53,837 nucleotides of DNA from Desulfocapsaceae bacterium (lineage in GTDB: Bacteria; Desulfobacterota; Desulfobulbia; Desulfobulbales; Desulfocapsaceae): the NCBI GenBank assembly GCA_031292275.1, contig JARLHL010000003.1, positions 1-53,837 of the forward strand. The letters are read 5' to 3'. Made by a program: the position numbers and the translations under genes. Every line of letters begins with the position of its first letter. Position 1 is the first letter of the stretch. The notes below the pieces were generated by a model that did no database searches, had not been told where the DNA came from, and saw only the letters and a list, made by a program, of their open reading frames with translations. This document shows, piece by piece, positions 2,573 to 53,837 of this stretch.

Positions 2573-2650
2573 TATTAATCTCCGCGCATGAAGGATGCAA
2601 ATTCCCTTTCGTTCGTTTTTATATGGAAACCCGTCGGAAACAGTGGCATT

Positions 2651-2716
2651 GCCTTGCTGAAATGACGTGTCTTCATACTCCGTTGGGCTGGCAGATCTGG
2701 CCCGGCCATGCTGGTT
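2651..2716 (+). repeat. Dispersed ~66-bp repeat, copy A
   Basis: This copy matches those at 35726-35792 and 53761-53827 over its whole length. Shared blocks in order are GCC-TGCTG, AATGACG, TTCA, CGTTG, GGCTGG, then GGCC-GGCCATGCTGG. The GGCTGG and CCGGCC arms can pair as a hairpin. This copy has one base fewer before GGCTGG and is the most diverged. It sits in a gene-poor gap between the fic/IS66 relic and the CBS genes. The rest of this gap up to 2901 shows nothing else. Confidence 0.7.
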
Positions 2717-2901
2717 AGAAGAGAGGTGATGCCTGGAAAGTGATGGAAAATATTCTCTACAGCTCACATTTTATATGAATCAAAGACCAACGAGAATCGG
2801 CTCTGGCCTGATTTTCCGGTACGTCCTTTCACTACAGCAAGGTAGGCTGCATACCGATGTATAACCCGACAATACCTCTTATCTTCCATGAAGGACCAGC
2901 A

Positions 2902-3375
2902 ATGAAGGAATTCGCCAGGGATATCATGCGCAGAAGTTTCCAGACCCTGCACGAAGAAATGTCGATTATGGAGGCAGTTAACGCATTCAAATCTTCAGGA
3001 GCGACTGAAGAAAGGATGATATTCGGAATGATGGTCACGGACAGAAACGACAGGCTTGTCGGGATGCTCTCTCTGTACGACATTCTCCTCTTCATCCTCC
3101 CTAAATATGCTCATATATGGGGGGCGATCGAGGATCTGGATATTTCAAGGATGATCACGTCTTCATGCGAACAGGCCCGCAACATACGGGTGGCGGATAT
3201 TATGACCTCTGAGGTAATCAGCGTAGGCCCGGATGCGAACCTGATCCTGCTGCTGGACATCATGATCAAAAAGCATGTGCGCCGCATACCGGTAATCGAA
3301 GAGGAACGTATTCAGGGTATCGTCTATCTCTCTGACATATTCAATCATATTGCCGATCGCCTCACCCAAAGCTGA
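2902..3375 (+). CDS. CBS-domain pair protein
   Basis: A protein of about 157 residues made of two CBS motifs forming one Bateman module, the type that binds adenine nucleotides. The first begins at MKEFARDIMRRSFQTLHEE, the second at RVADIMTSEVISVGPDANL and closes with RRIPVIEEERIQGIVYLSD. There is no attached enzyme or transporter domain. I chose ATG 2902 because GAAGGA stands 6 bases upstream and the CBS fold starts there; ATG 2857 in the same frame would add 15 residues with a weaker site. It lies 14 bases before the second CBS gene, so the two are probably cotranscribed. Confidence 0.85.
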   Translation: MKEFARDIMRRSFQTLHEEMSIMEAVNAFKSSGATEERMIFGMMVTDRNDRLVGMLSLYDILLFILPKYAHIWGAIEDLDISRMITSSCEQARNIRVADIMTSEVISVGPDANLILLLDIMIKKHVRRIPVIEEERIQGIVYLSDIFNHIADRLTQS

Positions 3376-4381: not shown

Positions 4382-5497
4382 TTATAGACCCCAATCTGTG
4401 ATCATTATCCCCGCGCTGATACGGTTTGAACTTGAGTTATAGTCGAGTAAACTTTCTCCATAACCGTTGAAGTACTGAATATAAAAGCTGATTTTATCAT
4501 TAAACGCCGAGAGCGGCACACTCAGGTCCAACTGCAGCGCCCCCTTGTTGTCGGCTGTTCGGAGATTGTTGCGCCACATTATACCGAATCTGTAATCTTT
4601 CCAATAATATATACCGCTGATTTCTCCATGTCCCATGTATTTTTCAATGTCGGGATTATCGTCATTCTGACTGTTTTCCGGCAGCCTGTACCAGAGTTTC
4701 ACGAAGAGGTCGAATTCGTTCCTGTCTTCTTCCCGTTCTTTGTCAAAAACCTTTTCGAACCCAAATTCGGTGAATAAACGGTTCCAACTTCGGGAAAGCG
4801 GTCTGGAGCGACCGTTTGATTGATGAATGAAGCCCGCATTGACAATGCGCAAGTTCATCAGATTCAGATCGAGAACATCGTAATTTGTCCGGTAGGTAAA
4901 GAACCCTTCCGGAGCATAGTTGGTATCGCGAAAGGGAGCGGAGAACGCTGAATTATACAGTTGCCAGAAGGAAATCTGGGTATAGCCTAACCAGAAATCA
5001 AGTTTTTTGCCAAAAAAATCATCCGGCAGCGGCCGCAGCTTGCCGCTCAATTGGAACACGGCCTCTGTGTTTTGGGGTTTTGCCGTCGGGTCGACATCCA
5101 GCATCGTTTCTTTGTTGGGCGTGTTGTTGTATGCGGCAAACAAGAAATAGTTCGGATTATGCCACTGGACCAATGGTGCATTTTTGCGGCTTTCTTCATC
5201 AAGGTCCCAATGTTTTTCCATCATGGAAATTCGATGAACCGGCTTATGCTGTTTCTCGGCATCAGGTTCAGCCGCGTTCACAATTGCTGCAGGGCCAGTT
5301 CGTTTGGAGAGATTGTCATAACATGCAAGCCTTTCATCCTTATCCTTTTCAGCCGCACATCTTTCAATCGCTTCTGTCATATCGGCAGGGATTTCTTTGG
5401 AAAAAATAAGCTCCGGATAAAAAAAAAGAAGCATGAGACAAAATAACACGCCCAATCGCCTTTCTTCATGCCCGGCCCAGCCGCTGGTATTTTTCAT
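4382..5497 (-). CDS. pldA: Outer-membrane phospholipase A (OMPLA)
   Basis: Phospholipase A of the outer membrane, which hydrolyses acyl chains of misplaced phospholipids. The catalytic motif is complete: His225 and Ser227 in FIHQSNGRS and Asn239 in SRSWNRLF. The 14-residue spacing from His to Asn equals that of the E. coli enzyme (His142, Ser144, Asn156). Start ATG 5497 is chosen because GGAGG stands 5 bases upstream; a longer frame to 5629 has no comparable site. Residues 1-33 form a signal peptide. Between it and the barrel lies an extra segment of about 100 residues with a Cys-containing motif (AIERCAAEKDKDERLACYD) seen in other proteobacterial envelope proteins, so the protein (371 residues) is longer than the E. 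coli one. It ends with a barrel-like C-terminus. Confidence 0.88.
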   Translation of the reverse strand: MKNTSGWAGHEERRLGVLFCLMLLFFYPELIFSKEIPADMTEAIERCAAEKDKDERLACYDNLSKRTGPAAIVNAAEPDAEKQHKPVHRISMMEKHWDLDEESRKNAPLVQWHNPNYFLFAAYNNTPNKETMLDVDPTAKPQNTEAVFQLSGKLRPLPDDFFGKKLDFWLGYTQISFWQLYNSAFSAPFRDTNYAPEGFFTYRTNYDVLDLNLMNLRIVNAGFIHQSNGRSRPLSRSWNRLFTEFGFEKVFDKEREEDRNEFDLFVKLWYRLPENSQNDDNPDIEKYMGHGEISGIYYWKDYRFGIMWRNNLRTADNKGALQLDLSVPLSAFNDKISFYIQYFNGYGESLLDYNSSSNRISAGIMITDWGL

Positions 5498-5650
5498 GGT
5501 AACCTCCATTTCAGGTCTTCTGGGGTGGAAATCTTCAGTGTAACACAGGAAAGCAGCAAAGGTGAATGATGATTTCCAACAAACCTCCGATATCCATATC
5601 CACACCTGGGCAAAAGGATCATTTTGCAACAGGCTTTGTCACATCATTTT

Positions 5651-5950
5651 CTATCGGGCAAAGGGGAAAGGAGTTAGCGAAGAGCCGGATCCCGATGGAG
5701 GTATCGCTATGGCAGTCTCTATGGAGATGGTCTTGACGACCGTCTCGTTTATGGACTCCGGGGGGAATTCGCAGGTGGCCGGGGTGATGTTTTCCGTATC
5801 GCGGGTACCGATGCTCCAACCGATCCTGGCCGGAACAAAATCAGTCCCATCGTCGGCCCCGGGTAAAATCGCCGCCTTAGACCTGCATGCAGGAAAAAGG
5901 CAGAAACTTTCGGTTATCCGGACGGCATCAACAGATAAAGGGCACGGCCG
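5651..5950 (-). pseudogene. Start-less open frame after the 1258-residue gene (possible frameshifted tail)
   Basis: On the minus strand a frame of 99 codons is open from just after a TGA at 5951-5953 to a TAG at 5651-5653, with no ATG, GTG or TTG in it. It reads plausibly as protein (DGTDFVPARIGWSIGTRDTE, then ITPATCEFPPESINETVV), with GC-rich third positions. It overlaps the last 8 codons of the 1258-residue gene in the +1 frame, so a single-base change between 5928 and 5950 would join the two. It may be a lost C-terminal extension of that gene, a decayed separate gene, or chance. The remaining 5498-5650 shows nothing. Confidence 0.35.
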
Positions 5951-8900
5951 TCAGCGGCGAGGTCCGGAGGATACGGCGCGAGCCGAGCCCGGCTCCGAGA
6001 GGATCCTCCCGCAGAGTATCCGTCGAGGTGCCGCCGGCACCGGTTGTACCGGTTGAGTCGGCGACCAGATCTCGGTTGGGATCCACCAGAGGCCCCGGAA
6101 GGACTTCAACCGCGAGGACGCTCAGGGCCGTGCCTGCAGGCAGGCAGACCAGGGTCAAACGGGCCTCAATGTCTTTTTGCGGAAAGAGGATCCCAGCAAT
6201 CGGGCTGCGGTTGGGTCCATGCTGCGGATTCAGACGGATCTGACCTTTGAGTGGCGAATTCGCAAGGATCGTGCCTTCGCGGTGATCGAGAAGAATATTG
6301 CGGTACGATGCGCCGTCCGCCTGCAGGACCTGGGCATACAGCATGAACCAGATGCGGGTCTGAGGATCGCCCGTCTTGAGATCATAGAGGCGATTGCCGT
6401 TGTAGACAGTGACGGCAAACGGGGCTGTGGCGCCGACGCCATTGGCGATGCGCTGCGGGGTGCAGATCAGATGCGGACAGGGATGCTGGATGCCGCTGAC
6501 ACGTAACGGACGGCCGAACCGGCCTTGGGCCGTGGACCACAGGCCGGCATGGCCGACCCGAAATTCATAGGTCCAGAAGCCGAACAGCTCGAGATCCTCT
6601 GCAGTCAGATTGGCAGGCAACGGCAGCAGAAAGTGCCTGCCGGAGCTCCCGACCCCCACCGGGTCTGCGGGAACCATCCGGGTCATGGCCTCAAGGCCGG
6701 ATTCGTCGCCCGACTGACCGGAAAAGATCCGTCGGACGGGCTCAGGGTCGACAGGGAGCGCCGGCTCGATCGTGTCGGCCAGCATCCGGGATACATTGTA
6801 CTGCGGCAACAGGTCGCCTGCGAGCAGAGGATCGGGGCCATAGGCAAGGACACGGGCAAAATAGGTATCCTCCGGATCATTGATCGGACTGTCAAACTCG
6901 ATCCATAAAAACCGGTCGCGCAGTGCCGTTTCCGCATACGTGGGCGAATGATGATATGGGGATTCGGCAATACCGGTGGCGACGATCTTCGGCACCTGCA
7001 CCGGCGGGGTCGTGACGGGGAGATGGATCGTGAAGGGGTATTGCTGGGAAGCGGCGGAATTGAAGCTGGCCGTGACGGTATAGTTGAGCTGGAGTTCCTT
7101 CGGGAAATCGCCGGGCCCCGGCTGCGGATTTACGCCGTCGAAGAAAATGATGCGGCTGAAAGAACGCTGGGGCTTTTGTCCCGGATTGCCGGAGATGCCA
7201 GGGCCTATGACCGGAGGCAGCAGGACCGTGCCGATGTCACGGCCGTCCCGCTGGTAGCTCAAGGCCGGGCTGCCGAAGCCTGTCCAGGTCCAATCACGCT
7301 CAACATCGAGAACCAGGGCGACAAGCCAATGGCCGAGCAGTTCGGTTTGATTGGAAAACACAAAAGAGCCGCCGTCCGGGGATATGCTGTGCCGAAGCGT
7401 GCCGGAACCGCCGAAGACGGTGCGGATCCCCGGCTGACCGGTAAATGTGAGGTCTTGCTGCTGCAAATTCATCTGCTGCCCGAGTATCTGGGCAATGTTT
7501 GCTCCGGGCTGGAAGAAGAAGGCCTGGAGCTGCAGCTCCGGAGTACTGGTAAAAAGCGCGTCCTCGGCGGCTGCCTCCTTCCGCACGGCATAATCCGACG
7601 ACAGGCCCACCATGGCTGCGTCGGACCCGTAATACCCGGTGCGTACCGCAGCCTTCGGGAAAAGACGCACACGAATGTCGCGCGAGGTCGGGATCGGCAG
7701 AGTGGTCGTCCCGATCGGCGGGGGGGGGATTTTCGCGATGTCGTCGATGCCGTCGGTATAGTCAAGGGCAAGGGTGACGGTGGGATCGGCTCCGGCCGGG
7801 AAAGGCACTTCAACGGAGTAGAGAACGCGATACAGGCCGTCGAGATCCCCAGGATCGGTTCCCGACTGGCCGGTATCGTTTATCGGGATGCGGGCTTCGA
7901 CACGCACCTCGAAGCGGTCGACATCGGGATCGGGCACATTGATCGCCCGCCCGCTGGCCCAGGCCTGCTGAATGAGCGTGCCGAGATTTGCCAGGTCAAA
8001 GGTGGAAGGGTCGACACCGGCGAATACGGCCTCGGGGTAACTGATCCGGGGGCGCTGGACGCTCAGGGTCTGGATAGTGCGCACAGCCGGAGGTGCGAGA
8101 GCGGGCGGGGCCACAGGAAACGGCGTCAGTCCCGGCGAGGCCGCGACCTCCAACGACTTTGGCGGCACATAACGGAGAAAGCGGATAGCGGTTGTAGGTG
8201 CCGGTCCGGGGTGGATGGCCGGATCGGTCATCAACGGGCCGCCGCCGGTGATATCCACCAGGCGCACACGAAATTCGTAGGTATTGCCGTAGCGCAGGAC
8301 CGGGACGGCGGTCAGGTCGGGATTGGGATTGGCAAGAGTCAGCGGCGGCAGGGGCGGCGGCGGGCTGCTGTTGGCATTCTGCACGGCAAATGCCAGAAGA
8401 TTCACAACCGGATCGGGCAGGACCAGGCTTGAGCCGGCCCACTGCGCAAAATACAGCGGCAGCCAGGCCGGATTATCGTTCATGGAATTGTCGTCCATGC
8501 TGACCCGCACGGGGGCCGGAGACAGCCAGAATTCATTGCCGCTGATCGATGTTGAAGCGGGCGCCCCGTAAGTGGTCTGGTTGAACGGCAAGGTGCCGTT
8601 GACCACGCAGAGCGAATCCCATTGGCTATCCCCCTGCAGACGCACGTCGACCCGATAGCCCTGGACTCCGAGGGGCGCTTCGGGAGTGAGGGTGGTCGCA
8701 CCGACACGATCGCGCAATAAATCGATCTGATTGTTGAGCCAGACCGTCACCTGTTCATCGTCCCAGCCGAGTTGAATTCCGGCTTCGGTGCCGGGGGCGA
8801 TCTGGTCGGCATCAAGCGTGGCTGTGTCGATGGTCTCGGGCTGGTTGGCATGGACGATCTGCGCAAAACCGTCGTCATACTCTTCGGCTTCGAGCTGGGC

Positions 8901-9704
8901 CTGGGCAAGATTCGAGGGCGGAGTCGTGACGATGGGGAGCAGGCTTGCAGCAAAGAGAGGCCGGTTGTGGGCTGCATCGAGTTCGGGGATGCGGGCAGCA
9001 TAGGATTTCACCGTGTCGGCGTTGGCTTTCCAGTCAGCAACCCACGGATTGGTCAGAGAAGAGGTATCCAGCGAAACCCAGAGAAAGCCGCCGCCCGCAA
9101 CCATTGCCGCCGGGACAGTCATACTCACCGTATAGATGAGGCCGAGCGATCGGGCCAGCGCGGGTTGCCGCAGGGCATAGGAGAGGATCTGCCCCCAGGA
9201 GATGGCTTTATCGGGCGGCGGCAGCGTGGAATTCACTGGCGGGGCCTGGCCGCGGAGGGCGCAGCCGAAACCCTGGCCGACAAAAATATCCCCGCTTCGG
9301 GGCTTATTGAAAGGAAAAGCGCCTGTGTAACTCTGGGGCAGCGATTTCCTGATGCGCGCCGCGGCGGGCGGCACAGTTGTCAATTTGCCGCTCTTGACCG
9401 CGATGCCCTTCGCGACCAGCTGGTTGTACAGGCCTGTGAACAGCTGTGTTGCAACCGCAGGAGGCTGGGCGAGGAAGGAGACCGACTTCGCCGGGGCGGT
9501 GGAGGTGGAGGGAAGCGACGCGAGCCCTGCCGCCAGATTGACGATCAGCGGTACGGCGGTTCCGGCAAACTGCGGGCCTCCGCCTAAAGGAGCCGTGGGA
9601 TCGCCAACCGGTAAAAGCAGGATATTGACGGTAAGGGTGCCCGAAGGACCGTCCCATCGTTGCGGAAAAGCCATAAGGCTGAGTTCGAGGTCATTTAATG
9701 CCAT
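5928..9704 (-). CDS. Giant protein of unknown function, 1258 residues
   Basis: No function is recognised. The protein is rich in Pro, Ala, Leu, Gly and Asp, has no signal peptide or membrane span, and reads as a chain of beta-sandwich-like domains: VPVLRYGNTYEFRVRLVD (about 465-485) resembles a fibronectin-type strand pattern, and FGFWTYEFRVGHAGLWSTAQ (about 1040-1060) with the following GRFGRPLRVSGIQHP is a distinctive block I vaguely recall from other uncharacterised bacterial giants. Residues 1-120 look like a separate globular start. AGAGGAG precedes the ATG, which is only 15 bases after the stop of the 1641-residue gene, so the two are cotranscribed and probably act together. It may be truncated by a frameshift at its 3' end (see 5651-5950). 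Long frames on the opposite strand are artefacts of its base composition. Confidence 0.85.
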   Translation of the reverse strand: MALNDLELSLMAFPQRWDGPSGTLTVNILLLPVGDPTAPLGGGPQFAGTAVPLIVNLAAGLASLPSTSTAPAKSVSFLAQPPAVATQLFTGLYNQLVAKGIAVKSGKLTTVPPAAARIRKSLPQSYTGAFPFNKPRSGDIFVGQGFGCALRGQAPPVNSTLPPPDKAISWGQILSYALRQPALARSLGLIYTVSMTVPAAMVAGGGFLWVSLDTSSLTNPWVADWKANADTVKSYAARIPELDAAHNRPLFAASLLPIVTTPPSNLAQAQLEAEEYDDGFAQIVHANQPETIDTATLDADQIAPGTEAGIQLGWDDEQVTVWLNNQIDLLRDRVGATTLTPEAPLGVQGYRVDVRLQGDSQWDSLCVVNGTLPFNQTTYGAPASTSISGNEFWLSPAPVRVSMDDNSMNDNPAWLPLYFAQWAGSSLVLPDPVVNLLAFAVQNANSSPPPPLPPLTLANPNPDLTAVPVLRYGNTYEFRVRLVDITGGGPLMTDPAIHPGPAPTTAIRFLRYVPPKSLEVAASPGLTPFPVAPPALAPPAVRTIQTLSVQRPRISYPEAVFAGVDPSTFDLANLGTLIQQAWASGRAINVPDPDVDRFEVRVEARIPINDTGQSGTDPGDLDGLYRVLYSVEVPFPAGADPTVTLALDYTDGIDDIAKIPPPPIGTTTLPIPTSRDIRVRLFPKAAVRTGYYGSDAAMVGLSSDYAVRKEAAAEDALFTSTPELQLQAFFFQPGANIAQILGQQMNLQQQDLTFTGQPGIRTVFGGSGTLRHSISPDGGSFVFSNQTELLGHWLVALVLDVERDWTWTGFGSPALSYQRDGRDIGTVLLPPVIGPGISGNPGQKPQRSFSRIIFFDGVNPQPGPGDFPKELQLNYTVTASFNSAASQQYPFTIHLPVTTPPVQVPKIVATGIAESPYHHSPTYAETALRDRFLWIEFDSPINDPEDTYFARVLAYGPDPLLAGDLLPQYNVSRMLADTIEPALPVDPEPVRRIFSGQSGDESGLEAMTRMVPADPVGVGSSGRHFLLPLPANLTAEDLELFGFWTYEFRVGHAGLWSTAQGRFGRPLRVSGIQHPCPHLICTPQRIANGVGATAPFAVTVYNGNRLYDLKTGDPQTRIWFMLYAQVLQADGASYRNILLDHREGTILANSPLKGQIRLNPQHGPNRSPIAGILFPQKDIEARLTLVCLPAGTALSVLAVEVLPGPLVDPNRDLVADSTGTTGAGGTSTDTLREDPLGAGLGSRRILRTSPLTAVPFIC

Positions 9705-9719
9705 GTTATGCTCCTCTGT

Positions 9720-12700
9720 CTAGACGCCCACCGTAATCTGCGGCGTGGTGACTGATTGCGAAAACTGCCAGGATCCGTCCCAGTCGATGCTGACGACCCA
9801 GCAGATGCTCAGATGGATACCGACGGAACAGGAAGCGAGCAGGGTGATGGTCTCAGGACCGAGCGTGACGGAGGTGTCGTTCAGCTCGGGATAAGGGGTA
9901 TTCGACGGGTTGAAGACAATGGGCGGAACAAGCGGGCTGAGCCCGAATCCAAGCGCCGCGGTGAGCGACAGGCTGGCACTGGCCAGGCCGTCAAGGACAT
10001 CGACCGAGGCCTGTCCGCTCAGGATGGCCATCAGGGCGATGGAATTGCCCGTAACGCTCAGTTGGACCGCGATGGTGACGGAGGCAGAGCCCGAGGCAAT
10101 GCCGAGGTCGATGGCAAGCCCGAGCCCAATACCCGCCTGGATACTGAAAGAAGGCTTGTTGGCGCGGACGCCGAAATCCATAAGACCGTTTCCGGCTAGC
10201 GGCGAGACGATCCAGTTGAAGGGATTGCCCGGATCGCCTATGCCGACGAAGAAATCAACGGCCAGCGGCGAGAGCTGGACATTGAGGCCGAGATCGAGGC
10301 TGATGTCCGTCAAATCGCCCAGGCCGAGCGGCAGATCGCCGATGGTGAAGCTGTCGCTGACTGTGATCGAGCCATTGGACACGGCGACGTCCAGATTGGC
10401 GCCGGCACCGCCGGGCAGGAATTGGGCCAGGGCCTGAAGGTGACTGAACACGGCCTTGACGGCGCTGAGCGCATCGCCCATTTGGATGTTGAGGCCGGTG
10501 AGTCCGGCCTTGGTGTGCTCATCGGCGTAAAAGCCCCCGGTGATGGTCAGCACCGGACTATTGCCGAAGGCGGGGACGGTGACGAGAAACGAGAGCGTAC
10601 CGACGCTGAGGCTCCAACTGGGCGAGGTCTGGGAATCGACGGTGTAGACCAGTTGGGCGGGCGGCGGGCCTGCCTTGGTGGTGTCGGCATACTGAAGATC
10701 GATGCGGATGAGGCCCAGATCAATGAGTGTGGTTGTCGGTGTATCTGTGAAGGGGAACGATTTGTTGTAATGAAAACCCTGGCCGATGGTGTCGATCTGT
10801 TCCATCGTGCCTTGAATGATTGAAAGCGCATTGGCGATGTCGGGGAAGAGGCCGCTGGAGTTCAGGATAGAGGCCAGATCACCCAGGTTGGGCGAGCCCG
10901 GGTTCAAGGGCACGCCGCCGGATTTCGGGCTTCCGGTCGGTTTAGGAAACTGGAGTCCGGGAGTGGCCGCCGCCGTCGGAATCTGAGGCGATTCGAACAG
11001 GACTTTATTGGTCCCGGTGGAATGCATCAGACTATAGAAATTGATCGGCTGCGCCAGCTGCAGTATATCCTTGATGTCCGCCAGGTACCAGAGGTCGGTG
11101 GTGCCTGCGGGCTGCACCAGAGGGACGGGAAAGTCGCTGGCCAGAGCAGAGGGAGCAGGCTCGGTATATTTCCGCCGGCCCATGCTCCAGCCGCCGCCGC
11201 GCGGAATCTGCGGGGCGCCCATGAGCGCGACGCCCAGGGCGGGCCAGGGTCCGGCAGTGCCAGCGGTGATCATATCGGTCTGGAAGGCGGAACAGCGCAG
11301 GGTGGTCCCGGGCAGGCTGTTTGCGGCGCCGGCCTCGATGGTGCCGGCAATGGCTGCGTTCAGAGCACCGATCTGGCTGAACAGATCCCTCATGACGTCA
11401 GGGTCGGGCACTTTACTGTCGGGCTGAACCTGGAGATAGCCGACCATGTCCCGGGAGGCGACAAGCACCGGAGGGTTGACAACGCCCTGCACCGCTGCGC
11501 TGAAGCCGCCGCTGACGGTCTCAAGTCCGGGCGACACGCCGAGATCGGCGTCAAAAAGCACCTTGGTGAAGAGAAAGGGTATGGCGGGGTCGGAGCTGTT
11601 GGCAACCGTGACGGTATCCGCCTGTTCCCGAATGTTACGGACGTTGAATACCCCGGCAAGCGCCCCTTGATGCACACGATTGCTCCAATCGGCGGCGGGG
11701 TCGGCGGGAAACTGGAACTGACCGTGCGAGGCAGGCTGCCATCCGGTGTCGCTGCGCTTCACCCATCCGGCGTTCTGGCGCAGCATGGTAATGGTGCGGA
11801 CGGTACGGATACAGTAGGGATAGATGACGCTGGCGGCCTTTATTACCTCATAGGACGTTCGCCCGATTGATGTATCGAACTGGACCTTGATGATTGCAGG
11901 CGGAATCTGGTCGGGCTTGTTCCAGTCGCTGAAGATGCTGGCCCCGTAGCCGGAGAAATCGATGCGATTGAGAGGAACCCCGGGCTGGGTGCCGCCGGCA
12001 CCAAACTGATTTTCGAACATGATGCCGACGTCGCCCGTACTGCTGGCAGGCCCCTGGCCGAGCACGGTGTATCCATAGCCATTGGGGGCGAGGCCGTTGT
12101 AGGGACCGTGGGCCGAATCCACCTCGGTTGCGCCGGGGAAGAATGCGTCGGGCCGGTCCGGATGCTGAGGCTGCACCGACAGCTGGACAGCGCCTTCCAG
12201 GGTGGGGACCGGGGGGCTCGGATCCGGGACAAAGGACTCCGGAAAGAGTGGCCGGTTGAGATGGAACCGGCCGCCGTTCAAGAGGAAGGATGATCCGTAC
12301 GAATATTTCTTATACTCAACATGGTTGGGCTGAATGATGAGGGCGTTCAAGCCGAAGGGCAGGCTGAAAACCGCCCCGAAAGGAACTCCCGCAGAGACAT
12401 TGCTGATGTTGTTCAGAAGAAGCGGGCCGGGGCTGAAGGGAACCAGCTGCTGATCGTCGGGGGACGTCAGGAGCAGCGGCAGGCCGTCGGACGGAGGATC
12501 GCAGAGAATGGGCCCCTGCTGATCGGCCGACGTCGATTCCATCGGCTCCCAAGACATCTGGGGCAGGGCAAAGGTCACAGCGAGGGCGCCGTTGAGGGCA
12601 AGCGACATCCCGCTGATGGCCAGCGGCGGCGCAGGCGTCGTCACGTCAGTCTGGGTTTGAAGACGATCAGAGGAACCGATACGCCGGGCCAGGGAAGGAA

Positions 12701-14645
12701 ACAGCGCCACACCGAAGAGATCGACGCGGGTCGAGAGGTCGAGCAAGGCGGGAGAGGCGGTTGAGCCCCGGCGGGCTGCGGCAATGACATCCCCTTCGAG
12801 GCTGAGGACCGACGGAAAAGGAGTCCCCGCTGTCCCGGCATTGTTCGGCGACGGCAGCAGGGCAAAGGCCAATGCAGGCTTGGTGTTTCCCCCGTCCCAG
12901 CCGATGACTGCCAGGAGAATGGCCTGCATGCCGCCCTTGGATTCCGGCGGGATCAGCGACAGATCGAAATTGGCGGCATAGGGGTCCGGCAGCGTGGGCA
13001 GCAGCCAGCGCAATCTGAAATACAATCCGATGACGCAACGTTCAACATCAAGGCCATGCACCATCCCGGACACGATCAGCACAGAGGGAGCGTCGACCCC
13101 GAGCAGCACATTTTCAAGCGCGATCGAGTCGACTGGTGCCTTAGCATCGGCCCGGTCCGCGAGAAGGAAAAGAAAGGTTGCGTGCTTGGCGGCGTCGAGC
13201 AGGAGCATGCCGCCAGCCTGGTACGGAATTTTCGAACCGGTAGAGAAGAGCGGGCGGTCGAGATAGGCCGCAAGCTCACCGGTGCTGAAAAGCAGCTCCC
13301 GGGCGGGCAAGGCCAGGAAGACGAAGAGAAAGTCGGGCGGCGTGCTGAATTTAACAGTGGCGCTCAATGTCGAAGGGGCGGTCTGCGGCCAGAGCCGGTA
13401 TACAGTATCGGCGGGCCGGGCCTTACCGAAAACGACGCTATAGAGACCACCCATACCGATCTCGAACAGTCCGGTGGTAATGGCTGCCCCGGACGACTCC
13501 ACCGCCGTTGCGACGAAAGCACCGCCATGAACGGCAAGGGCCGCAGCCCCCGGCCCGGCAGCTTCCGGGAGACTCGAGATACCGGTAATCGAAAGAGGCA
13601 GCGACCACCCGGCCCCGGCAATTTTTGCCTTTCCGGAAGGCATGAACAGCGTGGACTGAACGGTGGAAAATGCGAAAGTCTGCGGCGAAGCGTCGCAGGG
13701 TATCAGCACCGACGGGAGCCCGCCGACCTGCTCCGGCGTTTTCTTGTTCCAATGCAGCTTTATCGTTGAGCCATAGGCATGGGCGGTGCAATCGGCCACG
13801 ACCTCGAAGACGGCGCCGGTCTGCTGAAAAACGACGGTGACGCCGGACGGCGGTTTGAAGACCGCAGCGGCGGCATCGGCGCCCGGATTACCGGCAGGCA
13901 CGGGGCCGGGAGCCGGGGCGAGACCGGCTTTGAGAGTGAGGGTCGCATTGCTCGGGACAATATAAACACCGTTTTGATAACTGAGCGGAACCGACGACGT
14001 AAGCGTGCCCCCGGTGATGGTAAATCCTGTAAAAGCTCCGCCCGGCAGCGTAGAAGAGAGCAGCTGCGCAAGGAACCAGACGCTGCCCGGACCGAGCGTC
14101 AGGCTCGACGGCGAGGGCGAAGGGGAAAATTGCCTCTGGCAGGGAAATACCCCGAAGGGCGAGGAGGCGCTGCCGAAGGCAAAGGGAATGGAAACGGTGA
14201 AGGGAATGAAATCCACCCAGTGCAGAACCCCCTGGAGGTCTTGGAAGGGTCCGTATGTCTGCAGAACCTGCGCACCCCGGACCCAATCGGGCTGACCTTT
14301 CGGGCTGGCCTGGGTGGCGGCCAACGGACTGCGGATTATGCCAAAGAAGGAGGGCTTCGGCTGCGCCAATGCGCTCGCCGCAATCTGCAGCAGCTCGGTT
14401 ACGAGCTGCGGATTGGCCGGCGGTTGTGCATGTACTGGCCCGGGAACTGCGTGTATTTCCGCAAGGGACTTCCCGGCAAGAAGACTGGCGGCGAGACCGG
14501 AACGGGCGGCAGCCAGGGCCTCCGCTGAAACGCCGGGGCCAGGACTCCAACCGAAAGTAAGCTGTTCAAGAGAGGCGGCAAGAGAGGCGGCATCATTGCC
14601 ACTGCAAGGTTCACTATCGGGACGGGAAGGATCTGAAGTAATCAC
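9720..14645 (-). CDS. Giant protein of unknown function, about 1641 residues
   Basis: No function is recognised. The start taken is GTG 14645, with GAGGAGG 5 bases upstream; ATG 14666 in frame would add 7 residues but places that ribosome site inside the gene. There is no signal peptide. The body is beta-rich and Ala/Gly/Pro/Leu-rich, with recurring phrases such as LDRPLFSTGS and LNRPLFPESF. The last 200 residues are a striking run of alternating small and hydrophobic residues (GLGLAIDLGIASGSASVTIA, then SVDVLDGLASASLSLTAALG) that looks like amphipathic beta-strands. I recall similar C-terminal blocks in other uncharacterised giant proteins, without a confirmed name. It leads a two-gene unit with the 1258-residue gene. 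Candidate roles (surface structure, lipid-binding groove, secreted effector) are guesses. Confidence 0.85.
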   Translation of the reverse strand: MITSDPSRPDSEPCSGNDAASLAASLEQLTFGWSPGPGVSAEALAAARSGLAASLLAGKSLAEIHAVPGPVHAQPPANPQLVTELLQIAASALAQPKPSFFGIIRSPLAATQASPKGQPDWVRGAQVLQTYGPFQDLQGVLHWVDFIPFTVSIPFAFGSASSPFGVFPCQRQFSPSPSPSSLTLGPGSVWFLAQLLSSTLPGGAFTGFTITGGTLTSSVPLSYQNGVYIVPSNATLTLKAGLAPAPGPVPAGNPGADAAAAVFKPPSGVTVVFQQTGAVFEVVADCTAHAYGSTIKLHWNKKTPEQVGGLPSVLIPCDASPQTFAFSTVQSTLFMPSGKAKIAGAGWSLPLSITGISSLPEAAGPGAAALAVHGGAFVATAVESSGAAITTGLFEIGMGGLYSVVFGKARPADTVYRLWPQTAPSTLSATVKFSTPPDFLFVFLALPARELLFSTGELAAYLDRPLFSTGSKIPYQAGGMLLLDAAKHATFLFLLADRADAKAPVDSIALENVLLGVDAPSVLIVSGMVHGLDVERCVIGLYFRLRWLLPTLPDPYAANFDLSLIPPESKGGMQAILLAVIGWDGGNTKPALAFALLPSPNNAGTAGTPFPSVLSLEGDVIAAARRGSTASPALLDLSTRVDLFGVALFPSLARRIGSSDRLQTQTDVTTPAPPLAISGMSLALNGALAVTFALPQMSWEPMESTSADQQGPILCDPPSDGLPLLLTSPDDQQLVPFSPGPLLLNNISNVSAGVPFGAVFSLPFGLNALIIQPNHVEYKKYSYGSSFLLNGGRFHLNRPLFPESFVPDPSPPVPTLEGAVQLSVQPQHPDRPDAFFPGATEVDSAHGPYNGLAPNGYGYTVLGQGPASSTGDVGIMFENQFGAGGTQPGVPLNRIDFSGYGASIFSDWNKPDQIPPAIIKVQFDTSIGRTSYEVIKAASVIYPYCIRTVRTITMLRQNAGWVKRSDTGWQPASHGQFQFPADPAADWSNRVHQGALAGVFNVRNIREQADTVTVANSSDPAIPFLFTKVLFDADLGVSPGLETVSGGFSAAVQGVVNPPVLVASRDMVGYLQVQPDSKVPDPDVMRDLFSQIGALNAAIAGTIEAGAANSLPGTTLRCSAFQTDMITAGTAGPWPALGVALMGAPQIPRGGGWSMGRRKYTEPAPSALASDFPVPLVQPAGTTDLWYLADIKDILQLAQPINFYSLMHSTGTNKVLFESPQIPTAAATPGLQFPKPTGSPKSGGVPLNPGSPNLGDLASILNSSGLFPDIANALSIIQGTMEQIDTIGQGFHYNKSFPFTDTPTTTLIDLGLIRIDLQYADTTKAGPPPAQLVYTVDSQTSPSWSLSVGTLSFLVTVPAFGNSPVLTITGGFYADEHTKAGLTGLNIQMGDALSAVKAVFSHLQALAQFLPGGAGANLDVAVSNGSITVSDSFTIGDLPLGLGDLTDISLDLGLNVQLSPLAVDFFVGIGDPGNPFNWIVSPLAGNGLMDFGVRANKPSFSIQAGIGLGLAIDLGIASGSASVTIAVQLSVTGNSIALMAILSGQASVDVLDGLASASLSLTAALGFGLSPLVPPIVFNPSNTPYPELNDTSVTLGPETITLLASCSVGIHLSICWVVSIDWDGSWQFSQSVTTPQITVGV

Positions 14646-15122
14646 TTTGACCTCCTCACGACGCATTCTGGATAGGGAAGGTGATTATCGACCGCTTTTC
14701 CAGGAAGGCCTGAAAGAAGCTCACCCTGTTATCGTTCGTCTTGCTATGTGACTGTAATCTAGTGCCGCAAACCCAATGATGCAATATTTATTTATGAATA
14801 TTATTTGTTCTTCCTATAACAAGCGGACAAAATTCATTGGAGGGAGTCACGATTCGGATCATCTCCCACACGATTGCGAAATCCGAAACGCTGTTCTTGA
14901 AGTGTTGCTGATACGGGAATTCCAGGTTGCGATCAGAGGACGCCTGCACCCCTAATCTCCGGAGAACTGTTGACACTGCCGCCGAAGATGCAGCGGCACC
15001 GCAGGGTCGGGAAGACCTCATAGTCGGTCATGCGCTTTGCCCTGCGGCCGGAAATGCAGGCCCGGGGCTGGTGCCTGACCGCATAAAGCCAGAGAGTCTC
15101 TCTGCTCAAAGCAGAAAGCATT
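14646..15122. other. Gap between giant genes and fabD
   Basis: About 480 bases without a supported gene. The part nearest the giant gene should hold its promoter, but I see no convincing -35/-10 pair. 14780-14820 is AT-rich. Short frames here have neither ribosome sites nor recognisable products. Confidence 0.5.
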
Positions 15123-24724: not shown

Positions 24725-25657
24725 GCTGTTTCCTGTGCTCTTCTTTCACCATCAGGGGAAAGAAAAAAAATCAATATGACCTGCAGAGAACCTACAATAC
24801 CTGAATCATCAGCTAAGTATTACCGTTAGTTTTGATAAAATGTCAATAATCAAAGCTCTGACCGTGCACTCTCTACCCTCTTTTTTCGGCAGATATACTG
24901 CAATCCGGCCTTTGACGATTTGTTTGGATGCGGCAAGACATTCCGGGCAAAAATCCCGGTGAGCTGTGTAAAAGCTGAGAATTTTCAGCTGGAATCGAGG
25001 CAGGCAAAGAATTTTCACAGATATCCGATCGCAACGGGAGAGCTGGGGGCTTGCCAGCCGCAACAAATCATGAGCGCTCGTCGCTTCGGCAGGGCAATGC
25101 CGCCGCTTTAATGAAAACGTGAAGTTCTTCCCCGTTTGCACCGCGATGATCTGAAATCACCTCCGGCTGCTCGCCTCGCCATATCCTGACAAGTCGAGGA
25201 TCCCCCCTGAATACTCTCTGACAGAGATATCATATAAATATCATTTTTATATTAGAATAATATAGAAAAGGTACCTAAGAAACTTCGCCAAAATAAAAAA
25301 TTTACCATTACAGGATACTGCAAAACACGCATAAAAACAGTCCAAGACTTTACCGGCAGCGGGGAGACTCGGACCAAGGTGGCGCGTCCTCGCGCTGAGA
25401 CAAAATCGAAGATAATAAGCCCCACTCAACTTCAGAAGCTCTTCCTTCTCTCCCGGATGAGACGGTCAGGCATCGGAGTCTCTCCAACCTCCTCCCAAAA
25501 CATTTTTTGACGGCACCACTATCCCTCCTGCCGGACACCCATCAACGCTCCCTTTAGACGACAGGTGCTGTTGTCATCCTCGGTATGTGATCATGGTGGA
25601 TTTTCGGCAATGCTTCAGAATAATGTATTTCATTAAAATATTTTTTTGATATATATT
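24725..25657. other. 933-base gap before the partition cassette
   Basis: No gene is supported. The half near 24730-24850 should hold the promoter of the secreted-protein gene. A near-perfect palindrome AGCTGA-N6-TCAGCT lies at 24973-24990. From 25210 to 25280 and 25610 to 25660 the DNA is very AT-rich. Short frames show no ribosome sites or known products. It may be part of the foreign DNA that brought the parA cassette. Confidence 0.4.
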
Positions 25658-26653: not shown

Positions 26654-27118
26654 AAAATATACATCAGGTATACTGAGCATATTTATATACTATCTATATA
26701 ATACTAAAATAATATATACATAAAGGTCAAGTCTTCGTTTTCACAAATGCCGGTTTTTATCATCATTTTTTGACAATCCGAAGAAAAACCCCGGGCATGG
26801 CCTCACAGGACGGTACGGGAAAGCAGCAGAGCCGGACCTGACTGGCCGGCCGCAACGACACATCGAAGCGCACCGCATCGGCATGGCATGACAGCTGCTC
26901 CAGGGACGCTTTCGGCGTAAAAACGCCAGACTTGCAAGAACAGCCGCAGCCCTGCACGAAATTTTCACAGACCTCAATCCCGGTCAAAAATTGTCATTCT
27001 TCTCCAGGGCAGTCATCAGGCAATGGGGAGAGACGGGACTGAAAAGGATTAATGCAGCACCTTTAAGGGAGTCAGGCGTATATCCGCCAACACGGGGCCT
27101 GCCGGATGGCCCGTAATC
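26654..27118. other. AT-rich parA leader and gap to the Nudix gene
   Basis: 26654-26730 is almost only A and T with repeated TATAC/TATATA steps and includes GTATAC at about 26668-26673; it probably contains the parA promoter and more binding sites. 26740-27118 returns to normal composition and shows no gene. Confidence 0.45.
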
Positions 27119-35439: not shown

Positions 35440-35725
35440 TAAAATAGGTTTATGCTCTCGCAACCGCGGCGTCGCAAGCTCCTGCAGATCGTATCACACG
35501 AATAGTGCATGCCTCTACTGTAACACCTTCGGCACTCTATGCAAGATGGGAATGGACTCCCGCGCATCTGAGAATATCCTGTAAAAATTCCGCCGATCTG
35601 CGTTCTTGTCTTGCCTTCCTGGAGATGAGGCACTATAAGAATTCGTCAGTACTCATCATCGAAATCCGCCGGTATGCATGATCATCTGCCGGCTTTATCT
35701 GAAAGCGTGTTTGAGCGACGGCCCT

Positions 35726-35792
35726 GCCATGCTGCAATGACGAGCTTTCAGAGTGTGTTGTGGCTGGCGAGCTTGGTCCAGCCATGCTGGTT
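35726..35792 (+). repeat. Dispersed ~66-bp repeat, copy B
   Basis: The copy reads GCCATGCTG, AATGACGAG, TTTCA, GTTG, GGCTGG, GGTCCAGCCATGCTGG in order; the arms GGCTGG and CCAGCC form a perfect hairpin and GCCATGCTG occurs at both ends. It ends 10 bases before the ribosome site of rsmB. The rest of the gap 35440-35725 shows no gene. Confidence 0.75.
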
Positions 35793-35815
35793 TATCTCAA
35801 AAAAGGACGGCAGAA

Positions 35816-52657: not shown

Positions 52658-53734
52658 ATGTCATATTTCAAGGCTAACTGCCTCCCGCTTCTCATAGGAA
52701 GCCTGCCCCTGGCAGACCACGATCAGGCCACCGGCCTCATTCTTCAATACACCCCGGAGATCCCCATCTGGCCTCAGCTGCCGGTGCACAAAGAGGAGGG
52801 AATGCTCGTCCAGTTTCTCTCAGGATTTCCCGGAAGAACCGAGGTAGACGGCAAGGTCTTCATAGACACAGAAGCCGCAGGCTTCGACGATGATTTTCTG
52901 GCCTTCTATACAGAATACGTGGAGGTTACCGAGGGAGGCGCGGACCTTGAAAGTTCCCGTTTCGTCCTCACGCAGGACAGCGCCAAAGGTTTTTTCACCT
53001 TCCTGGAGCAGACCGGACGCATCAAAGAAAGACTCACCGCTCTGAAAGGCCAGATAACCGGCCCGATCACCTTCTGCACCGCCATGGCAGACGGCAGCGG
53101 CCGGGCAATCTTCTATAATGACCAGCTCAGGGATGCAGCCGTCAAGATGCTGGCCCTGAAGGCCGGGTGGCAGATACGCAGGATGGCCGGGATCTGCCCC
53201 ACGGCCATCGTCTTTTTCGATGAGCCCGGCCTGGCGGGATTCGGATCATCCGCCTTTATCACCATCGGCCCCGACGACATCAAAGCCTGCCTGAACGAGG
53301 TCTTTGCCGGAGTCCATGCCGAAGGGGGGCTTGCCGGAGTGCATGTCTGCGCCAATACCGAATGGCCCGTCATCCTGGAGTCCGATGTCGACATCGTCAG
53401 CTGCGACACCTACTCGTACTTTGATAAACTGCTCCTCTACCCCGAGCACCTGAAGCGCTTTTTCGAAAGAGGCGGCATCCTGGCCAACGGCGTCATCCCC
53501 ACCATCCCGGAATTTCTCGATATCGAGACCGCGGAGAGCTTGACGGCCAGATGGCTTGCGCAGACTGCGCAGCTGGAGAGCTTAGGAATTCCCCGCGACC
53601 GCATCTCTGCCCAGACCCTGATTACCCCGAGCTGTGGGACCGGTTCGCTGCCTGGCGGCCACGCCCAAAAAGTCCTTGAACTGACGCAAGCGGTATCCCG
53701 GGCAATCCGCACCGGAGGCGGCGTAGGTTTATAG
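52658..53734 (+). CDS. MetE-like core methionine synthase/UROD-fold protein
   Basis: A 358-residue protein of the catalytic (C-terminal) half type of cobalamin-independent methionine synthase, without the MetE N-terminal half. Zinc-ligand candidates are in GVHVCANTEW (His-x-Cys) and TPSCGTGSL (Cys), corresponding to the MetE HxC and C ligands. FDEPGLAGFG and CDTYSYFDKLL support the barrel. Such short forms occur in anaerobes as methyltransferases that use corrinoid or other one-carbon donors, so methionine or methyl-corrinoid chemistry is possible. The stop is followed by copy C of the dispersed repeat. Confidence 0.8.
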   Translation: MSYFKANCLPLLIGSLPLADHDQATGLILQYTPEIPIWPQLPVHKEEGMLVQFLSGFPGRTEVDGKVFIDTEAAGFDDDFLAFYTEYVEVTEGGADLESSRFVLTQDSAKGFFTFLEQTGRIKERLTALKGQITGPITFCTAMADGSGRAIFYNDQLRDAAVKMLALKAGWQIRRMAGICPTAIVFFDEPGLAGFGSSAFITIGPDDIKACLNEVFAGVHAEGGLAGVHVCANTEWPVILESDVDIVSCDTYSYFDKLLLYPEHLKRFFERGGILANGVIPTIPEFLDIETAESLTARWLAQTAQLESLGIPRDRISAQTLITPSCGTGSLPGGHAQKVLELTQAVSRAIRTGGGVGL

Positions 53735-53760
53735 AAAAGTCTCGTTGTGATGCCGGCCGT

Positions 53761-53827
53761 GCCATACTGAAATGACGAGATTTCATATTTCGTTGAGGCT
53801 GGTCATTCCGGTCCAGCCATGCTGCTA
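53761..53827 (+). repeat. Dispersed ~66-bp repeat, copy C
   Basis: This copy reads GCCATACTG, AATGACGAG, TTTCA, CGTTG, GGCTGG, GGTCCAGCCATGCTG in the same order as copies A and B. It begins 26 bases after the stop of the MetE-like gene, where it could act as a transcript-end hairpin (GGCTGG with CCAGCC). The window ends 10 bases later. Confidence 0.75.
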
Positions 53828-53837
53828 CGTCCCAGCA

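Follow-up and report, generated by a model that had tools for sequence, protein, structure and literature searches.

The window, meaning the whole stretch of 53,837 nucleotides analysed here (contig JARLHL010000003.1 of a Desulfocapsaceae bacterium), contains five copies of a short repeated element, as found by a search with covariance model R1. An earlier note, made from the letters of the sequence, had reported three copies of about 66 bp at 2651-2716, 35726-35792 and 53761-53827, all in the same orientation and all in gaps. The three are present at these positions, with their blocks in a common order and a mean column identity of 75%, a likeness that is far beyond chance. When copy 1 was used as the sole query against the whole host genome (4.14 Mb, 114 contigs), 41 matches were returned, with copies 2 and 3 at E 2.0e-6 each. 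The block of 66 bp is therefore real, but it makes up only the 3' two thirds of a unit of about 98-106 bp; the 5' third (TTTATATGAAAG...) was missing from the earlier note, and the alignment of 30 host places in one orientation puts the start about 30 bases further 5'. The common orientation is true of the three best copies, all on the plus strand, but not of two degenerate copies on the minus strand. The features in the window are as follows:

2617..2721, plus strand: element copy 1 (98.4 bits, model R1), with 2651-2716 as its 3' part
35693..35797, plus strand: element copy 2 (91.6 bits, model R1)
53727..53832, plus strand: element copy 3 (108 bits, model R1)
25022..25124, minus strand: element copy 4, degenerate (44.7 bits, E 2.1e-9 in 441 kb searched)
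26816..26921, minus strand: element copy 5, degenerate (40.6 bits, E 2.8e-8 in 441 kb searched)
53735..53789, plus strand: module A of copy 3, outer hairpin GAAAAGTCTCGT ... ACGAGATTTCAT, arms paired, with covariation between genomes
53790..53822, plus strand: module B of copy 3, spacer, GGCTGG...CCAGCC hairpin and ATGCTG end, with sequence conservation

The genes around the window copies are mutually unrelated. The neighbours of copy 1 are a Fic-domain ORF (1030-2160) and a CBS-domain gene (2902-3375), whilst copy 2 separates two divergent genes, one for a class I glutamine amidotransferase (minus strand) and one rsmB-like (plus strand), with TTTATCT on both of its sides. Copy 3 is the exception to the placement in gaps, as its first 8 bases lie within the 3' end of the ORF at 52658-53734 and supply the TAG stop codon of that ORF (53732-53734). 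Elsewhere in the window, two adjoining and very large ORFs on the minus strand (5928-9704 and 9720-14666; 1258 and 1648 aa) have no Pfam match at E 0.001, and beside them is a phospholipase A1 gene (4382-5509).

In the orientation of the earlier note, the unit reads TTTAT-NN-module A-spacer-module B, followed by TT and, in recent copies, by AG. Module A is a GAAA...TTTC hairpin with a variable interior, and module B is GGCTGG...CCAGCC, CATGCTGG. The covariance model was built from 28 of the 30 aligned host places, leaving out two that lack the usual 5' part. The search of the whole genome with such a model, proposed in the earlier note as a check for further copies, gave at least 150 copies in the host genome, the weakest listed at E 5.4e-6, and among those listed there are seven head-to-tail arrays with a spacing of 94-100 bp, and in the arrays that were read through the junction is GCTGG-TTTATATG or a variant of this. 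The median pairwise identity of host copies is 0.654 and the best 0.962 (n = 97): the host copies are old on the whole. Module B is seldom found without module A, as only 4 of 163 module-B matches in 1.46 Mb reach E <= 1e-4 with no long profile match covering them, and three of these four still match model R1. A longer autonomous form was rejected on these counts for the 110 bases inspected before the four matches, though one with a more distant gene between its ends is conceivable. Two copies of 147 and 138 bases (L118:2980-3126 and L070:1501-1638) have unrelated sequence as the interior of module A, which in the latter forms a long hairpin of its own. No coding role is visible in the unit of about 100 bp, as far as can be seen.

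The GGCTGG...CCAGCC hairpin pointed out in the earlier note is conserved by sequence, as module B, but single window copies taken as RNA do not fold better than shuffled sequences (z +0.13, +0.02 and -1.38). Among the host copies alone, none of the 17 pairs of an RNAalifold consensus has two-sided changes. With neither excess folding nor two-sided changes in the host copies, the case for structure is weak within one genome, and the evidence for it comes instead from comparison between genomes. A structure of 12 pairs for module A, named after inspection of the sequences, was scored on alignment A8 (29 rows, 6 of them from the host), which had been fitted to a model without the 12 tested pairs. 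Two-sided changes occur in 8 of the 12 pairs, and 78.9% of cells are paired. Covariation scored 0.219, which no shuffled alignment out of 500 attained (0.130 +- 0.013), and the six versions of the structure slid along the alignment all gave lower scores; the shuffles ignore relatedness, which the slid versions do not. Duplex energies calculated for 109 of 137 copies agree in direction: in 14 of the 16 genomes, all but G001 and G045, own arms form a more stable duplex than arms paired across genomes. The paired stem changes that the earlier note had suggested looking for are thus found, in the arms of module A and between genomes. The asymmetry of G-U against A-C pairs, taken as a guide to the functional strand, showed no clear preference.

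Matches were found in 16 of 58 genomes, the host included (E 0.01), and, under stricter filters and with the scoring limited to 15 places in each genome, in 57 of 257 genomes of the class, representing 26 of 69 genera (E 1e-4). The distribution is patchy, with three matches each in G001 and G002, of the same genus, against at least 67 in G026, of the same family, and 64 in G039, of another family. Searches of Rfam with the window and five loci at the gathering score, and with four loci at E 0.1, gave no family matches, and searches of plasmids (with one copy), phages (with another copy) and viral contigs (with one exact pattern) gave short matches or none. No description of the repeat family was found in the literature by title and abstract, within a coverage that leaves out most subscription journals.

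The borders of the element can be read in genome G051, since 15 of its copies are near-identical (median identity 0.941), the sixteenth being divergent. Among the G051 loci examined, four copies of a repeat, X, are filled by the element at one and the same place and two are empty, the empty form reading GTTACTTAGCCATCC and the filled form GTTAC[TTTATATG...GCTGG]TTAGCCATCC, with the element in square brackets. The junction is accordingly CTTAGCC when empty and C[TTTATATG...GCTGG]TTAGCC when filled. A second repeat in G051, with one filled and one empty copy, gives the same reading but for one base of the left flank. Repeat X (..CGAATTTTGTTACTTAGCCATCCGGGCTTTGTCGCCGACTTTTTACGAG..) is itself intergenic, lies on the minus strand at L122:17309-17412 and L123:17869-17972 of G051, and has served four times as a landing place. 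TTAGC stands directly 3' of 13 of the 16 G051 copies, and a version with one base changed behind two more. This motif does not derive from stop codons, as just 2 of the 16 copies are at a predicted one. In G115, TTAG is found behind six of nine copies, but among the old host copies behind only 14 of 84 (7/18 of those abutting a stop codon and 7/66 of the others), so that TTAG as the target is supported chiefly by G051 and, to a lesser extent, by G115.

Nine G026 sites were also checked in the sister genome G011, where two are readable and both are empty. At one of these, the TGA stop of the preceding gene is common to both genomes and the G026 element starts right behind it. The other seven are too diverged or rearranged in G011 for a clean reading, one being about 100 bases shorter there. 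One readable site may alternatively be read as a 5-bp duplication, TTTGT, and the TTTATCT on either side of window copy 2 points the same way. The target duplications that the earlier note had raised are not a general property of the family: none of three or more bases is seen in X or in the second repeat, where there is only an ambiguous TT. A permutation test of flank likeness in 114 non-tandem copies likewise found it not to be copy-specific in 19 of 20 settings, with one at z 2.8. Insertion is therefore at TTAG (CTAA on the other strand), without a duplication of three or more bases and with a TT that may or may not be duplicated. Another short repeat in G026 (L111:8574-8654) has more than a dozen matches in G011.

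Genes were called with a simple script of our own and not with a standard gene finder, and the host context set comprised 96 copies, the five weakest having been left out, with genes on both sides for 88. As to clustering at gene ends, which the earlier note had put forward as a check, a stop codon lies exactly at the 3' border in 25 of 67 stop-facing copies (18/49 in the host and 7/18 in five relatives). A single facing gene extends deeper into the element, by 20 bases, and one other copy falls within a predicted gene. This is not what would be seen if genes merely ran into the element, since they would then stop in three frames. With TTAG/CTAA as the target and a stop codon inside CTAA, the target is probably why many copies sit directly behind stops. 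Where a host copy lies between two co-directional genes, it runs antisense to the pair in 37 of 55 cases (28/40, p 0.017; 9/15, p 0.61), but without the 14 stop-abutting host copies the count is 23 antisense against 18, and in the relatives alone it is 14 of 23 (p 0.40). The orientation bias is mild and is largely explained by the target.

These findings make it likely that the repeat, about 100 bp long, is a non-autonomous mobile element, moved in trans and inserting at TTAG. Its mobility is evidenced through the at least 150 copies, the arrays, the patchy presence, the near-identical copies in G051, and the filled and empty sites. The earlier note had named a lack of further copies, or of conserved paired arms, as the outcome that would tell against its reading, and neither was observed. 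Of its two suggestions, a "REP/MITE-like family" is right in that the family is dispersed throughout the genome, but the strict MITE and REP labels both fail. Its other suggestion, a structured regulatory element, does not agree with the sites that are empty in a sister species, the copies inside other repeats and the lack of an Rfam match. In its fuller form, this would be a conserved cis-acting RNA element of many genes that is not mobile. The paired changes in module A would fit such an RNA, as would the complementary strand being co-directional with the genes in the 37 of 55 host gaps, but copies lie inside other repeats of which empty copies are found nearby, orthologous sites in G011 are empty, the orientation count evens out once stop-abutting copies are removed and in the relatives, and the neighbours of the window copies are unrelated, which together make this reading very improbable. 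As to the MITE label, small mobile repeats and MITEs, ERIC, RUP and Correia among them, as far as the cited text describes them (PMC2229807), are alike in being about 100-200 bp long and intergenic, with long stem-loops, whereas the element differs from them in having no terminal inverted repeats, no general target duplication and a TTAG rather than a TA target. A classical MITE was rejected, as in the alignments read the 5' end TTTATATGAAAG does not match the reverse complement of the 3' end CCAGCATGGC, and duplication does not extend beyond the ambiguous TT in X and the second repeat, although one site permits TTTGT.

The question of which enzyme moves the element has several possible answers, and the host genome has neither a Y1 nor a Y2 transposase match. 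One special case of the mobile-element explanation is that the element is a PATE, which keeps only the ends of an IS200/IS605 element, inserted 3' of CTAA on the complementary strand; the Y1 transposase that moved it would then have disappeared from the host genome. This is possible but doubtful. In the portion of the source consulted (PMC7290912), IS200/IS605 elements and PATEs are described as lacking inverted ends and target duplications, with a fixed tetranucleotide next to one end and a hairpin close to either end. The element likewise combines a lack of inverted repeats and of duplication with a fixed tetranucleotide, and has hairpins near both ends (module A by covariation, module B by conserved sequence). 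It also resembles PATEs, as the same portion presents them, in being short and non-coding with a short fixed target and an enzyme acting in trans, and Y1 genes were found in all nine relatives searched. However, it differs from them in having no related full element found, no Y1 match in the host, no strand bias and at least 150 copies. Its ends are absent from the four IS200-like Y1 loci (in G017, G030 and G001), and in the host genome no full Y1 element shares them. A guide tetranucleotide complementary to the target was not recognised on inspection by eye. IS608-type insertion is described, in the part of the source at hand, as preferring the lagging strand (PMC6006769), but the orientation of 96 host copies does not correlate with GC skew (Fisher p 0.21-1), and a replication-strand bias was rejected on this comparison. 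An equally simple reading of the junctions is the action of a recombinase that uses a two-base core, be it of IS110, IS607 or another serine or tyrosine type, with a circle joined as GCTGG-TT-TATATG recombining with the chromosomal TT in TTAG. The junctions permit a duplicated TT and the arrays carry the junction expected of such a circle, yet no circle was seen, and as an identification this is rather doubtful. A derivative of an IS91-type (Y2) element was rejected, since Y2 genes occur in 7 of 16 genomes, not including the host, and the element ends are found at none of 12 Y2 loci. It is improbable that the element is a REP/BIME-like repeat moved by a RAYT (TnpA-REP). As presented in the sections consulted (PMC3733652, PMC8266576), REPs and RAYT REPtrons are alike in being high-copy, intergenic, palindromic and sometimes clustered, and CGTC REPs in being without a known dedicated transposase, but REPs measure 20-50 bp, against about 100 bp with two hairpin modules and no conserved GTAG or CGTC tag here. 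RAYT-like Y1 genes are common in the relatives; four of the eight Y1 genes of G051 lie within 2.8 kb of a copy, a closeness noticed after the fact, and in G039 one RAYT gene has copies at 197-300 and 2175-2272 around its ORF (431-1414). Against this, the host has at least 150 copies without a Y1 match, the G051 copies stand at 2.1-2.7 kb on either side, and the flanks of the relatives' RAYT genes mostly differ from the element. Of 15 RAYT-like loci, a single one (L172), whose genome has frequent copies, carries element-like sequence within its 350-bp flanks, whilst four have an inverted pair unlike the element. A RAYT as mobiliser, and a GTAG REP with its own RAYT gene, were rejected on these grounds, and a tagged REP on the unit of 98-106 bp, the mostly GTTG-like bases before hairpin B and the absence of CGTC from the G051 family. 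The RAYT-like Y1 genes are many in the relatives (L162-L181), and several of their flanks carry GGGGACG...CGTCCCC-like sequences.

For the non-autonomous mobile element that is preferred here, the claim extends to mobility and target site but not to a particular enzyme. The element would join at the TT of TTAG without duplicating three or more bases of the target, and a new copy landing at the border of an older one would give rise to a head-to-tail array. An enzyme acting in trans would be needed, which would probably recognise the hairpin ends, and it may read a folded single strand, since it is the shape and not the sequence of module A that is kept between genomes. As CTAA holds a stop codon, a copy landing just behind a stop would spare both neighbouring genes, and such copies may have been the ones to survive; their complementary strand would be co-directional with the genes, where some effect on the mRNA is conceivable. 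A more far-reaching form of this proposal, an orphan family of mobile hairpins in one bacterial order that lands at CTAA, accumulates behind stops and is moved by an undescribed enzyme system, perhaps reading a folded single strand, is speculative and, taken as a whole, unlikely.

Abundant in a deltaproteobacterial group, and with insertion points read exactly from filled and empty copies, this family of probably mobile repeats poses the question of which enzyme moves it. As a caution, screens for conserved intergenic RNAs in the same group will pick up this element. The stop-containing target, in turn, suggests how a repeat may fill short intergenic gaps without breaking genes.
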